Positions 52 through 4,699 of a stretch of DNA of 33,184 nt are shown piece by piece. Under the pieces are notes generated by a model. That model ran no database searches. It saw nothing but the letters and a program-made list of their open reading frames with translations, and was not told the origin of the DNA. Made by a program: the position numbers and the translations under genes. Source of the stretch: Falsiroseomonas oryziterrae (lineage in GTDB: Bacteria > Pseudomonadota > Alphaproteobacteria > Acetobacterales > Acetobacteraceae); contig NZ_JAKJIB010000014.1 in NCBI RefSeq assembly GCF_021864505.1, forward strand, positions 1-33,184. The letters run 5' to 3'. Position 1 is the first letter of the stretch. The number at the start of each line of letters is the position of its first letter.

Positions 52-128
52 CGCGGGGTGGAGCAGCCCGGTAGCTCGTCAGGCTCATAACCTGAAGGTC
101 ACAGGTTCAAATCCTGTCCCCGCATCCA
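52..128 (+). tRNA. Initiator tRNA-Met (CAT anticodon)
   Basis: The cloverleaf folds well. The acceptor stem 52-58 pairs with 118-124 but keeps a C1-A72 mismatch, the hallmark of bacterial initiator tRNA. The anticodon CAT lies at 86-88 in the loop CTCATAA, closed by TCAGG/CCTGA, and the T arm contains GGTTCAAATCC. CCA is encoded at 126-128. Oddly, the discriminator base (position 73, here 125) is T, where initiator tRNAs normally carry A. The 3' half is overlapped on the opposite strand by the end of a serine recombinase gene, so this end probably marks an integration site and T73 may have come from the inserted DNA. Confidence 0.95.
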
Positions 129-1743
129 TCTTGATTTGCACCAACAACGCCTCGGCAACACAGCCGAGGCGTTTGTCGTTTCGGGCACCCTCCGCCAAAG
201 CCAGGATCGCCCCCAGCGCGCCGCGGACCTCGATCCGCAGCTGGCCCACCTCGGGCACCAGCCGGATCGCCTCCACCAGACCCCGCACCACCTCCCGCGC
301 CTGCGCCGCATCCTCGGACTCCAGCGCGCGCGACAGCTCGGCGATCCGCTCGCGGTAGACCTCCGCCAGGTTGGGGTGCAGCCGCGGTGCAGGCGCCTCG
401 GCCCCCGCCAGCTCGGCCTCCAAGGCTGCCTTACGCCGCTCCAGCTCCTCGAGCCGCGCCTTGAGCGACGATGACGCCGTGCCTGCCACGATGGCATCGA
501 CCGCACGATCGATCCCCGCCTGCACCCGCTCGAGCTTAGCGCGCTTGGTGGTCAGGCCCGCCGACGCCTCCGCCTGCAGCCGGTTCCACGTCGCGGTGAA
601 CTCGGCCACGAAGTCCCGGAACAGGTCGGGGTCCATCAGCCGTTCGCGCAGCGCCCCGAGCACCGTCTCCTCCAGGTGGTCGCGCCGGACCGTCAGCCGG
701 TTGGTGCAGGCGGTCGGGCCCTTGTTGCGAGCCGTCGAGCAGCCGAAGTGCGCCGCCGAGATCTTGGAGAAGCCGCCGCCGCAGGCGCCGCACACCATCA
801 GCCCCGAGAACAGATACCGCGGCCGCTGCTTGGCCCAGAACGCCCCTTTGGGCGCCTCCACTCCCGTCGTCGCGCCCTTGCGGTCCAGCGCCTCCTGGCG
901 GGCCTTGGCGGCCGCCCAGAGTTCGTCGGCGACGATCCGCAACTCGGGGATCTCGGTGACCACCGCCTCCGCCGCAGCCGCGCGGCGCGCGAGCCTCCGG
1001 CCGGTCTCCGGGTGCTTGATCCAGGTCCGCCGGCCCCAGACCTGGCGGCCGATGTACAGCTCGTTGTTGAGGATCCCCGTGCCCTTGCCGCGGTCGCCGT
1101 TGATCGCGCTCGGCGCCCAGGCGCCGCCGCGCGGCCCCGGGAGCCCCTGCTCGTTCAGCGCGAGTGCGATGCGCTTGGGCGACAGACCCGCGGCGTAGTC
1201 GCGGAAGATCCGCCGCACGACCTCGGCCTGCACCGGATCGATCTCCCGCCGTCCGCGGGGGGCATCGCCGCCCACCACCCGGTAGCCGTAGGTGAGCCCG
1301 CCGGCGCTCCGCCCGCCCTCGGCGACCGCCCGGAGCCCGCGCCGGGTCTTTGCCCTCAGATCCGACAGGTGAAGCTGCGACATCGTGCCGACCAGGCCGA
1401 TGTGCATCGGCGTGATGACGCCGTGCTGGATCGTGTGGATCGGGATCCCGAGGAAGCCCAGCCGCTCGTGCAGCGTCGCGATGTCGGCCAGCTTGCGGCT
1501 CAGCCGGTCGAGCCCCTCCGTCACCACCACATCGAACCGCCCTGCGCCGGCATCCGCGACCAGCTGCGCGAAGCCGGGCCGGTGCACGCTGGCGCCGCTG
1601 ATCGCGTGATCCTCGTAGGAGCCGACAACCACCCAGCCCTGCGCCTCGGCATAGAGCTGGCAGGCGCGCGTCTGGTCGGCCGCCGAGCGCGGGTTCTGCA
1701 GGTCGCTGCTGAACCGGGCATAGGTCACCGCGCGCCGTGTCAT
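85..1743 (-). CDS. Large serine recombinase (site-specific integrase)
   Basis: This is a 552-residue large serine recombinase, which cuts and rejoins DNA through a 5'-phosphoserine. The resolvase domain covers residues 1-145, with the YARFSS motif (nucleophile probably Ser12) and GLDRLSRKLAD. A recombinase domain follows at about 160-290, then a zinc ribbon (CGACGGGF plus later cysteines) and a C-terminal coiled coil. The ATG at 1743 is chosen because it overlaps the upstream stop as ATGA and gives the canonical N-terminus. A longer open frame back to 2112 is only antisense to the upstream recombinase. The last residues (GFEPVTFRL) are encoded antisense through the tRNA-Met, a typical signature of an integrase lying at a tRNA junction. 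It is the third gene of a recombinase trio. Confidence 0.93.
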   Translation of the reverse strand: MTRRAVTYARFSSDLQNPRSAADQTRACQLYAEAQGWVVVGSYEDHAISGASVHRPGFAQLVADAGAGRFDVVVTEGLDRLSRKLADIATLHERLGFLGIPIHTIQHGVITPMHIGLVGTMSQLHLSDLRAKTRRGLRAVAEGGRSAGGLTYGYRVVGGDAPRGRREIDPVQAEVVRRIFRDYAAGLSPKRIALALNEQGLPGPRGGAWAPSAINGDRGKGTGILNNELYIGRQVWGRRTWIKHPETGRRLARRAAAAEAVVTEIPELRIVADELWAAAKARQEALDRKGATTGVEAPKGAFWAKQRPRYLFSGLMVCGACGGGFSKISAAHFGCSTARNKGPTACTNRLTVRRDHLEETVLGALRERLMDPDLFRDFVAEFTATWNRLQAEASAGLTTKRAKLERVQAGIDRAVDAIVAGTASSSLKARLEELERRKAALEAELAGAEAPAPRLHPNLAEVYRERIAELSRALESEDAAQAREVVRGLVEAIRLVPEVGQLRIEVRGALGAILALAEGARNDKRLGCVAEALLVQIKMDAGTGFEPVTFRL

Positions 1744-2873: not shown

Positions 2874-4699
2874 CGCCGCCTCCGACCAGGCCGGAGCGCA
2901 GCGGGGCGCGTCTTGCTGCTCGTGCTCGTGATCCCGGACAGCGAGCGCTTGCGGCTGATGAGCGCAGCGAGCCGCTGCGACGCGCCCTTGGCAGATACCG
3001 AGCGGTAGTGCCGGAGCCCGGTGTCGTACCCCTTGTGACCGAGCACATCGCGGAGGTCATCGATCGCGTTCGGAGCGTCCTCGAGGATGAGCGCGCCCGC
3101 GAAAGCCCGGAATAGGTGCGCGTTCATGCGCACTCCGATGTGCTCGTGCACGGTATCGGTGATCGCTGTCCCGAGCGTCGTCTTGTCGCGCGGCCGATCG
3201 GCGTGATCGCGCGACGGCAGCAGCCAGTCGGAGCCGGGGTGCGCAATGAGTCCCCTGAACTTCGCGACGTAATGCGCGATGAGGCTCGAGGTGGACGCCG
3301 GCAGCCGGCACTCGATCCGCGCGCCGTTCTTGACCTCGTGCGGTTCCACCACCAGGCGCGTCGGGCGGTCGCCGCGGCGGCCTCCGTCCGTCTGCAGGTG
3401 CACGCCAAGGCGCAGGGCGGCGAGGTTGGACAGCCGCAACGGGCAATGGAGCAGGATCTCGATGGCGACGGCGATCGAGGCGAGCCACGCGGCACGCTTG
3501 GGCTGCGGCGGGTGCTCGACACCACGGGAGTCCACCCAGCCGTCGCGGGTCTGCGCTGCGATGCCGATGAGCAACTCCGGCAGCCGGACGAGGGCGACAG
3601 CACGCGCCGGGTCCTCGAGTTCACGCAGGCGCGCTGCGGTCTTGGCCGTCATCTCGCGCTGTCGCGGTGGATGGGCCCGCCTGAGGTCGTCGAGAATGAC
3701 GCGCAGCGCCTCTCCGGTGAGCTTCAACTCGTACTTCGCGATGATGTTCAGCACGCTTGCGATTGCGCCCGTGATGTGGCTCGCCCGCCGGCCGGCGCGC
3801 TCGTAGTGCCATTCGATCGCGCGTCGTCGATGCTCGACGAGGTAGGCGAGGCCGGTGATCTCCTCGGCCGGCGTGCCGGTGTGGACCAAGGCGGCCATCG
3901 CGAGGCGGAGGGCGGCCAGGTGCGAACGGATCGCCCCAGGGCGCAAGGGCACCGGCGGACCGTCGCCGGTAAAGAGGCCCGAGCCACCGCCCGGGGCGGT
4001 GCCGGCGAGCCGCTCCGCAAAGCGGGCTATCTCCTGCTGGAGCGAGGCCGGATAGGTGGAGAACGCGGGGGCGTAGCGCTGCTGACGGCTCTGCACGCCG
4101 CCGAGGCGCCGGTTGGGCCATCCGGGTACGGCTTCCGCGGCCCTGTTCCACGTGGCCGCCGCCCGGCGGGCGCGGTCCCAGGCGGTGATCCTGATGTCGG
4201 CTTCCCGCAGATGCTCCGCGAAGGCCTGCAGGGCCGCGTCATCGACCTCCGCCGGCACGATGCCTCTGCCGCCGCAGAAGGCGGCGAAGCCGCCGAGCGA
4301 CATGCGGGCGAAGCGGTTCGGCAGGAGGTCGAGGAGAGCGGTCCAGTCGGCCGGTAGTTCCGCAACTGCGAGGCTCGGCGTAGCCAGGAGCCCCATGCGG
4401 CGCAGCAGGAAGCGGAGGCTGCTCCGATAGGCGCGGAGCGTCCCCTGGCTGACGTCGAGCGCGGCGGGCGTCTTGCGGCCGAGGAGATCGCGCACAGCCT
4501 CCGGCGTGAGCGGGACGAGGTCCAGAGGGCGGCCGCTCGCCCGGCCGAGCAGCCGGAGCGCCGCGCGCAGGTCGCGCCGGCGCCGCTCGGGGATGTCGGT
4601 CCAGCCGTCGAGGTCGCGGAGGGCGTCGGCCGCGGTGGTCGGGAAGGCGGAGATCGCCGTCGATTGCAGGAGGCGCTTTCGGCCAGAGAAGGAGTTCAT
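2870..4699 (-). CDS. Large tyrosine recombinase, first of the trio
   Basis: A 609-residue site-specific tyrosine recombinase. The first two thirds is an unusually long N-terminal part (core-binding region plus unassigned helices), and the last 200 residues are the catalytic domain. Catalytic motifs are PLRLSNL (first Arg), HLFRAFAG (HxxR), LGHKGYD and RHYRS (Tyr). ATG 4699 is preferred because GAGG lies 8 nt upstream; an alternative ATG at 4732 would add 11 residues. The 3' end overlaps the next recombinase by 4 bp. Long plus a shorter tyrosine recombinase in tandem recalls TnpA/TnpB of Tn554 and the RIT trios, but here the third member is a serine recombinase, not another tyrosine enzyme or a TnpC. 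Confidence 0.9.
   Translation of the reverse strand: MNSFSGRKRLLQSTAISAFPTTAADALRDLDGWTDIPERRRRDLRAALRLLGRASGRPLDLVPLTPEAVRDLLGRKTPAALDVSQGTLRAYRSSLRFLLRRMGLLATPSLAVAELPADWTALLDLLPNRFARMSLGGFAAFCGGRGIVPAEVDDAALQAFAEHLREADIRITAWDRARRAAATWNRAAEAVPGWPNRRLGGVQSRQQRYAPAFSTYPASLQQEIARFAERLAGTAPGGGSGLFTGDGPPVPLRPGAIRSHLAALRLAMAALVHTGTPAEEITGLAYLVEHRRRAIEWHYERAGRRASHITGAIASVLNIIAKYELKLTGEALRVILDDLRRAHPPRQREMTAKTAARLRELEDPARAVALVRLPELLIGIAAQTRDGWVDSRGVEHPPQPKRAAWLASIAVAIEILLHCPLRLSNLAALRLGVHLQTDGGRRGDRPTRLVVEPHEVKNGARIECRLPASTSSLIAHYVAKFRGLIAHPGSDWLLPSRDHADRPRDKTTLGTAITDTVHEHIGVRMNAHLFRAFAGALILEDAPNAIDDLRDVLGHKGYDTGLRHYRSVSAKGASQRLAALISRKRSLSGITSTSSKTRPAALRPGRRRR

Follow-up and report, generated by a model that had tools for sequence, protein, structure and literature searches.

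The window analysed here is a stretch of 33,184 nucleotides from Falsiroseomonas oryziterrae (NZ_JAKJIB010000014.1), the entire contig C46 of a 735-contig draft genome. Its left end carries an operon of three site-specific recombinase genes, two for tyrosine recombinases (TyrA and TyrB) and one for a large serine recombinase (Ser), beside an initiator tRNA gene (tRNA-fMet). Our subject is the island to which this operon belongs, the serine enzyme that would place it at the tRNA, and the tyrosine pair that accompanies that enzyme in some elements and not in others. The three genes are:

85–1743, minus strand: Ser, a large serine recombinase of 552 amino acids (aa) and putative integrase, with its final codons antisense to tRNA-fMet (open reading frame (ORF), Pfam, conserved residues)
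1740–2873, minus strand: TyrB, a tyrosine recombinase of 377 aa with a TTG start, Cre/Xer-like and with no evident arm-binding domain (ORF, Pfam, model)
2870–4699, minus strand: TyrA, a long tyrosine recombinase of 609 aa, with a Xer-like catalytic domain and a long helical N-terminal part (ORF, Pfam, model)

A first-pass annotation, made from the letters of the window, had given these genes their coordinates, strand and lengths and had noted that they overlap; all of this was reproduced from the sequence, with ATGA at 1740–1743 joining TyrB to Ser and TTGA at 2870–2873 joining TyrA to TyrB in one operon. Four features had escaped it: the tRNA-fMet into which the 3' end of Ser extends, an excisionase-like gene upstream, a Prim-Pol gene and the right end of the element. 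By Pfam, Ser is made of Resolvase, Recombinase and Zn-ribbon domains, and the Phage_integrase family matches the tyrosine enzymes weakly, TyrA just above the curated cut-off and TyrB below it. Both tyrosine enzymes have the R-K-H-R-H-Y set of simple Xer/Cre-like recombinases, and conservation was assessed in about 70–130 relatives per protein. In TyrA the set is R422, K457, H528, R531, H555 and Y565, each kept in at least 71 of 74 relatives. TyrB has R188, K218, H287, R290, H314 and Y323 intact in the window; five of these six are kept in 67–69 of 69 relatives and H314 in 48 of 69, about 30% having replaced it. R10, S12, Q24, D79, R80 and R83 of Ser are present and essentially invariant among its relatives, and its four zinc cysteines are conserved. 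The claim that all three enzymes retain their catalytic residues is therefore confirmed, and extends to near invariance among relatives.

The serine integrase, its tRNA and the ends of the island

The features at the two ends of the island are:

52–128, plus strand: tRNA-fMet (CAT), the proposed integration target (ARAGORN), with a 5S-like sequence ahead of it in the joining contig C207 (end of a ribosomal RNA (rrn) operon), whose end overlaps window positions 1–127
116–127, plus strand: attL core GTCCCCGCATCC within the tRNA 3' end, a 12-bp match to 24073–24084
129–139, plus strand: left attP arm TCTTGATTTGC, an inverted repeat of 24053–24063
146–173, plus strand: intrinsic-terminator-like hairpin after the tRNA, antisense to the Ser 3' end, with an 11-bp perfect stem (fold of –22.6 kcal/mol for 141–185)
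24053–24063, plus strand: right attP arm GCAAATCAAGA, an exact 11-bp inverted repeat of 129–139
24073–24084, plus strand: attR core GTCCCCGCATCC, the 12-bp core repeat and right end of the element
24151–24330, minus strand: decayed 3' end of an apparently older Ser gene with its own hairpin ahead, suggesting tandem accretion (80% aa identity to residues 476–535 of the Ser of locus L178)
24915–25531, plus strand: remnant of a multi-copy mutator/IS256-type transposase (genus comparison)

Because the overlapping contig C207 terminates in the 5S-like sequence followed by a tRNA-Met, we take the tRNA at 52–128 to be the initiator tRNA that closes an rrn operon. The left 127 bp of the window are a repeat, common to the window and two other contigs. 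Its two continuations, in C46 and C321, were considered as a pair of occupied and empty sites, but this proof was discarded, because a repeated rrn operon would account for both just as well.

Ser ends inside this tRNA, its last residues (GTGFEPVTFRL) being the antisense of the tRNA 3' half. The same arrangement, with the Ser stop codon within a tRNA-Met, is found at 45 loci that have Ser without the tyrosine pair and at 19 loci that have all three genes (trio loci), and no neighbouring tRNA-Met was seen in the neighbourhoods examined of tyrosine-pair loci that lack Ser. The nearest Ser relative of the window, 77% identical and from the same genus, also sits at a tRNA-Met, and the 7.5 kb fetched upstream of it hold no tyrosine pair. 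As befits a serine integrase, Ser is encoded at the end of an element whose limits, attL and attR, have a short core in common; as befits a tRNA-targeting island, that element has an intact tRNA at one end, a tRNA 3' fragment at the other and an integrase gene inside. That Ser inserts the island at tRNA-fMet is strongly supported by these sequence features.

The island spans about 24.0 kb, from 116 to 24,084, with a repeat unit of 23,957 bp. Its right end was exposed by comparison with genus relatives, which showed conserved chromosome from window position 25,532 onward. When the ends are joined, the two arms stand 22 bp apart and flank the core. Two inverted arms around a core are the architecture expected of a serine integrase attP. 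The 22-bp spacing recurs, with weaker arms, in three other elements (G321 E1, G321 E2 and G216): the arms match at 12 of 14 positions in the window (chance fraction 3e-5) and at 9, 9 and 11 of 14 in the others (0.001, 0.002 and 0.0003), the results for G321 E1 and G216 not being independent because the two share their left arm. The ends of these four elements support a predicted Ser attP in which two inverted arms, separated by 22 bp, enclose a tRNA-identical core. In G321, an element of about 29 kb closes with a 14-bp copy of the core, followed by sequence also found after the other tRNA-fMet. What appear to be relics of older elements behind the right end, in the window and in G321 E2, show that insertion at the same tRNA has been repeated.

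A different right end, at 24,752–24,786, had been considered for its resemblance to the sequence beside a core copy in contig C24, and was rejected once a core and a matching inverted arm were found at 24,053–24,084; position 24,752 would then mark no more than the right arm of a different element, now decayed. Further att-like arms (GCATAAGCCGATG..., TTCGGCATAAGCCGATGCG) occur in the window at 24003–24043 and 24752–24786, and in the same genome at C24:7659–7719 and C445:35108–35126. They adjoin intact or decayed cores and apparently mark the ends of older tRNA-fMet elements.

The first-pass annotation had proposed mapping the ends against empty sites in close relatives. Genus relatives gave the right end; a clean empty site was not obtained in the one genus of the family in which it was sought, where most rrn-linked tRNA-fMet copies with a readable flank hold a Ser gene or a relic of one. 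The tRNA-fMet of L316 looks empty, but that one-genus search gave no matching occupied counterpart.

The end of the island beside the tRNA has a second recurrent feature. A GC-rich hairpin followed by a T-run comes after the tRNA in many Ser elements, with sequences that differ from one element to the next; under a strict perfect-stem rule we found it in 28 of 66 loci, against a mean of 0.2 after mononucleotide shuffling. The C-terminal codons of Ser are thus antisense to the tRNA and to the terminator-like structure as well. Such a hairpin would terminate the rrn/tRNA transcript and keep rrn transcription out of the island.

Other Ser sequences deserve a record here. The source genome carries a second Ser-like gene fragment (G000:C90 8687–9327) with 71% DNA identity to part of Ser. 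A well-supported Ser clade consists of trio members only, with C-termini that do not read into a tRNA (L057, L058, L074, L082, L083, L090, L092 and L281). Two Ser relatives, L301 (at a tRNA-Met) and L268, come from genomes labelled Acidobacteria, which may reflect wide transfer or contamination of draft genomes.

The HTH-TyrA-TyrB module

Relatives of TyrA occur in 76 of 397 genomes of the family and in 20 of 385 genomes drawn from the class. Reading the neighbourhoods, we found the order TyrA-TyrB-Ser on one strand at 39 distinct loci in several alphaproteobacterial orders; the loci were picked by their TyrA or Ser matches, so the counts are not unbiased frequencies. The 4-bp overlap is present between TyrA and TyrB in 19 of the 39 and between TyrB and Ser in 18. 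Carriers include Leisingera, Ruegeria, Rhodobacter, Roseicyclus, Alsobacter, another Hyphomicrobiales genome, Caenispirillum and several Rhodospirillales/Acetobacteraceae. Two trios lie on the single-contig chromosome of G321. Another belongs to a complete Azospirillum plasmid; its Ser gene occupies two frames and has no entry in the PLSDB gene table. The arrangement had been said to be accidental if the three genes occurred only separately, with overlaps that are not conserved. This is not what is seen: since 39 loci keep the order and 18 of them the 4-bp TyrB/Ser overlap, the arrangement is not accidental.

A co-evolved unit of three enzymes is not supported either. A small gene for a helix-turn-helix (HTH) protein is conserved directly upstream of TyrA:

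4807–5082, minus strand: small HTH_17/MerR-type protein, excisionase-like (Pfam; HTH genes annotated upstream in relatives)

Roseomonas plasmids have HTH-TyrA-TyrB and lack Ser. Elsewhere the pair has other partners, whose identities were read from sequence: in L062 what looks like a P4-type integrase, with tRNA-Pro alongside; in L093 a large serine recombinase other than Ser, lying in tRNA-Arg; and in L220 yet another apparent integrase. Across 30 trios, TyrA and TyrB distances correlate (Mantel r=0.80; 0/5000), and those of Ser correlate with neither TyrA (0.11, p 0.07) nor TyrB (0.01, p 0.44); for this reason we regard TyrA-TyrB as one travelling unit and Ser as an exchanged partner. On the Ser tree (128 rows), 14 changes of trio membership are needed, and well-supported branches force at least 9 of them; membership is nevertheless clustered, the shuffled mean being 31.6 with 0 of 500 shuffles as low. 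On the TyrA tree (65 rows), the presence of Ser needs 15 changes, at least 10 of them forced, against 17.9 when shuffled. Closely related loci such as L242/L243 and L250/L256 are sisters in both trees; many deeper pairs are not. Three observations speak against a co-evolved unit, namely the separate occurrence of Ser and the tyrosine pair, the at least 9–10 gains or losses and the uncorrelated distances. Judged by these comparisons, HTH-TyrA-TyrB is a separate, jointly inherited module that became linked to tRNA-fMet serine integrases on several occasions and often shares an operon with them.

Some genomes hold several copies of the module, three each in G088 and G347 and two in the source genome. 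The second TyrA-TyrB pair of the source genome (L096, G000:C725 13016–14725) is without Ser and adjoins two large UvrD/ATPase-looking genes. Searched with tblastn, plasmids gave TyrA/TyrB matches only in Roseomonas, Azospirillum, Pukyongiella, Microvirga and Sulfitobacter, and searches of phage and viral collections gave no relatives of TyrA or TyrB.

Upstream of the module, the island holds further genes:

5341–6246, minus strand: hyp301, a protein of unknown function with homologues in the same position in L061 and L076 (neighbourhood comparison)
6599–7765, minus strand: Prim-Pol + PriCT_1 replication protein, its probable start lying within a 583-aa ORF (Pfam; homologue upstream of the trio in L061/L098)
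8602–9734, plus strand: IS3-type insertion with an rve-domain ORF at 9162–9734, 71% to C321
12796–14070, plus strand: cargo, a PHB-depolymerase-type esterase (Pfam)
14114–15361, minus strand: cargo, a Na+/H+ exchanger (Pfam)
20089–24042, minus strand: cargo and last island gene, a CheB-CheR-PAS-HWE histidine kinase fusion whose start is 11 bp from the right attP arm (Pfam)

Among the part of the window ORFs scanned with Pfam, there were no relaxase or type IV secretion genes. In relatives, the place upstream of the HTH gene is taken by variable proteins (L242 3863–4708, L243 3977–4687, L280 3576–4652, L288 1230–2051, L212 2674–3372 and L022 1552–2490). None of these six matches a Pfam family above the cut-off, and by eye they have a similar-looking G-x-L-x-x-F motif near the C-terminus.

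What the tyrosine pair may do

By sequence, the closest solved relatives of TyrA and TyrB are XerD, XerA and XerH. The TyrB model (mean predicted local distance difference test score, pLDDT, of 82) has a fold nearest to Cre/XerH, aligned over most of its length. The TyrA model is of lower confidence and has extra N-terminal helical parts, and its structure search was uninformative beyond a Xer-like match. By analogy, the pair could serve a circular, Prim-Pol-bearing form as a Xer/Cre-like system of maintenance or multimer resolution, a reading to which we give about an even chance. It would fit because the pair consists of two catalytically conserved enzymes, occurs on plasmids without an adjacent integrase and lies near a Prim-Pol gene; of the reactions the pair might carry out, dimer resolution seems the likeliest.

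To explain these results, we favour, with some confidence, an island of about 24.0 kb inserted at tRNA-fMet by Ser, plus a separable tyrosine module whose likeliest role is to resolve multimers of the circular form. Ser, encoded at the tRNA end, would insert the island into the 3' end of the rrn-linked tRNA-fMet, and the end of the island beside the tRNA restores it and supplies the terminator-like hairpin. The tyrosine pair would act on the circular, Prim-Pol-replicated form, converting multimers to monomers and giving the serine integrase a unit-length circle, and translational coupling may make both systems appear together at excision. More tentatively, we envision a heteromeric tyrosine pair that is co-translated with a serine integrase and resolves or processes the circle during replication, leaving the integrase to dock that circle at tRNA-fMet; this would be an undescribed mode of upkeep, assembled repeatedly from two independently mobile modules.

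Several observations pull away from the favoured scheme. The TyrB/Ser overlap, conserved in 18 of 39 trios, is more than a loose association needs. Only two elements, those of the window and G321 E1, have a recognised Prim-Pol gene upstream of the trio. A search of the region upstream of TyrA in 28 loci gave no consistent inverted-repeat core of a dif-like site, and because the recombination site of the pair was not found, multimer resolution rests on analogy. Lastly, 20 trio loci have a complete Ser frame and no tRNA overlap, a well-supported clade of 8 among them, so that not all trio integrases target tRNA-fMet.

Could the pair instead be a transposon in its own right, akin to Tn554 or RIT elements, that has landed time and again next to integrase genes without taking part in the life cycle of the island? 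Its many backgrounds (plasmids, islands with different integrases) and its several copies per genome would suit such a unit, as would related Roseomonas plasmids on which two copies are homologous from the HTH gene onward and have unequally conserved flanks. A free inserter, however, would not keep a constant orientation and position upstream of Ser and a 4-bp overlap in 18 of 39 loci; inverted repeats upstream of TyrA were not found, and the stretch common to the two almost identical copies in G088 is at least 9 kb long and does not end at the module. We regard this explanation as unlikely.

Still less probable is that the pair aids Ser directly, for example in excision from tRNA-fMet with an accessory or directionality role, so that integration and excision would be the work of different enzymes. 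The translational coupling of the three genes, the recurrence of the trio and the resemblance of the HTH protein to excisionases speak for it. Against it, 45 Ser-only loci occupy the same tRNA target, the distances of Ser are uncorrelated with those of TyrA and TyrB, the pair also accompanies unrelated integrases or sits on plasmids without any, and both of its enzymes keep catalytic residues that a protein–protein cofactor would not need. Of the original suggestion that integration and excision use different enzymes, the assignment of integration survives, as it belongs to Ser; a split of the two chemistries between integration and excision finds no support. Finally, one contig among 735, its left 127 bp repeated on two others, might raise the suspicion that the genes are neighbours by accident in a single draft genome, or were misassembled. 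This explanation is refuted by co-occurrence at 39 loci, including the G321 chromosome and the complete Azospirillum plasmid, which leaves it with practically no chance of being right.

Relation to known elements

RIT elements are units of about 3.5 kb with three tyrosine recombinases (Van Houdt et al. 2012, PMC3414803). Like the operon studied here, they have three adjacent, overlapping recombinase genes in one operon and are frequent in Alpha- and Betaproteobacteria (PMC3414803), whereas the third gene here encodes a large serine integrase, which places the operon outside that definition. Tn554 and related actinobacterial transposons likewise have one long and one normal-sized tyrosine recombinase with the catalytic motif in both, but the third gene of Tn554, TnpC, is not a recombinase, and the hosts differ (PMC3414803). 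Moreover, our pair lies inside a tRNA-targeting island or on plasmids, and the ends of the element follow the serine integrase. With a serine recombinase as third gene, the trio falls outside the Tn554 family as well, TnpA/TnpB having been set beside TyrA/TyrB by description only. The first-pass statement that known trios are tyrosine-only or have a non-recombinase third protein agrees with this account (PMC3414803).

Mesorhizobium tripartite integrative and conjugative elements also have several integrases per element, one of which targets tRNA-Met; unlike ours, these are three tyrosine integrases with three separate sites, encoded apart and without a serine enzyme (PMC5882170, PMC8627217). 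The strand-biased elements SE-6283/SE-6945 share two tyrosine recombinases in a core operon, the N-terminal part of one being very long, but have a four-gene core, intA-CDS2-intB-CDS4, and no serine recombinase (PMC9345347). In the literature searched, a Tyr-Tyr-Ser operon was nowhere described, though this does not prove that no description exists.

On the side of the integrase, the islands catalogued by Islander resemble ours in having the tRNA restored at one end, a core repeat at the other and the integrase aboard (PMC4383910). Islander names tyrosine integrases as the sole kind known to target tRNA genes (PMC4383910); the present integrase belongs to the serine recombinases, and its family was seen at tRNA-Met in 64 of the loci examined. 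The closest case is the active prophage vB_PamS_Pami6, for which the relevant passages of a Paracoccus survey report a serine recombinase at tRNA-Met(CAT) as the single such case (PMC6536676). The class of integrase, the tRNA-Met target and the alphaproteobacterial host are alike. It differs in being a phage rather than a Prim-Pol island, those passages make no mention of a tyrosine pair (PMC6536676), and the two integrases are compared by description only.

All the enzymes discussed here are members of known families. What is unusual is the class of integrase in a tRNA-targeting island and its recurrent second recombination module. Serine integrases had been considered not to target tRNA genes (PMC4383910), and one exception was later reported in Paracoccus (PMC6536676); the family described here, broad and mainly alphaproteobacterial, does target them. 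Its ends are defined well enough for candidate attB/attP pairs to be proposed, and their target is highly conserved. Beyond this, the recurrent coupling to a catalytically conserved tyrosine pair raises the question of why one element should hold both recombination chemistries.

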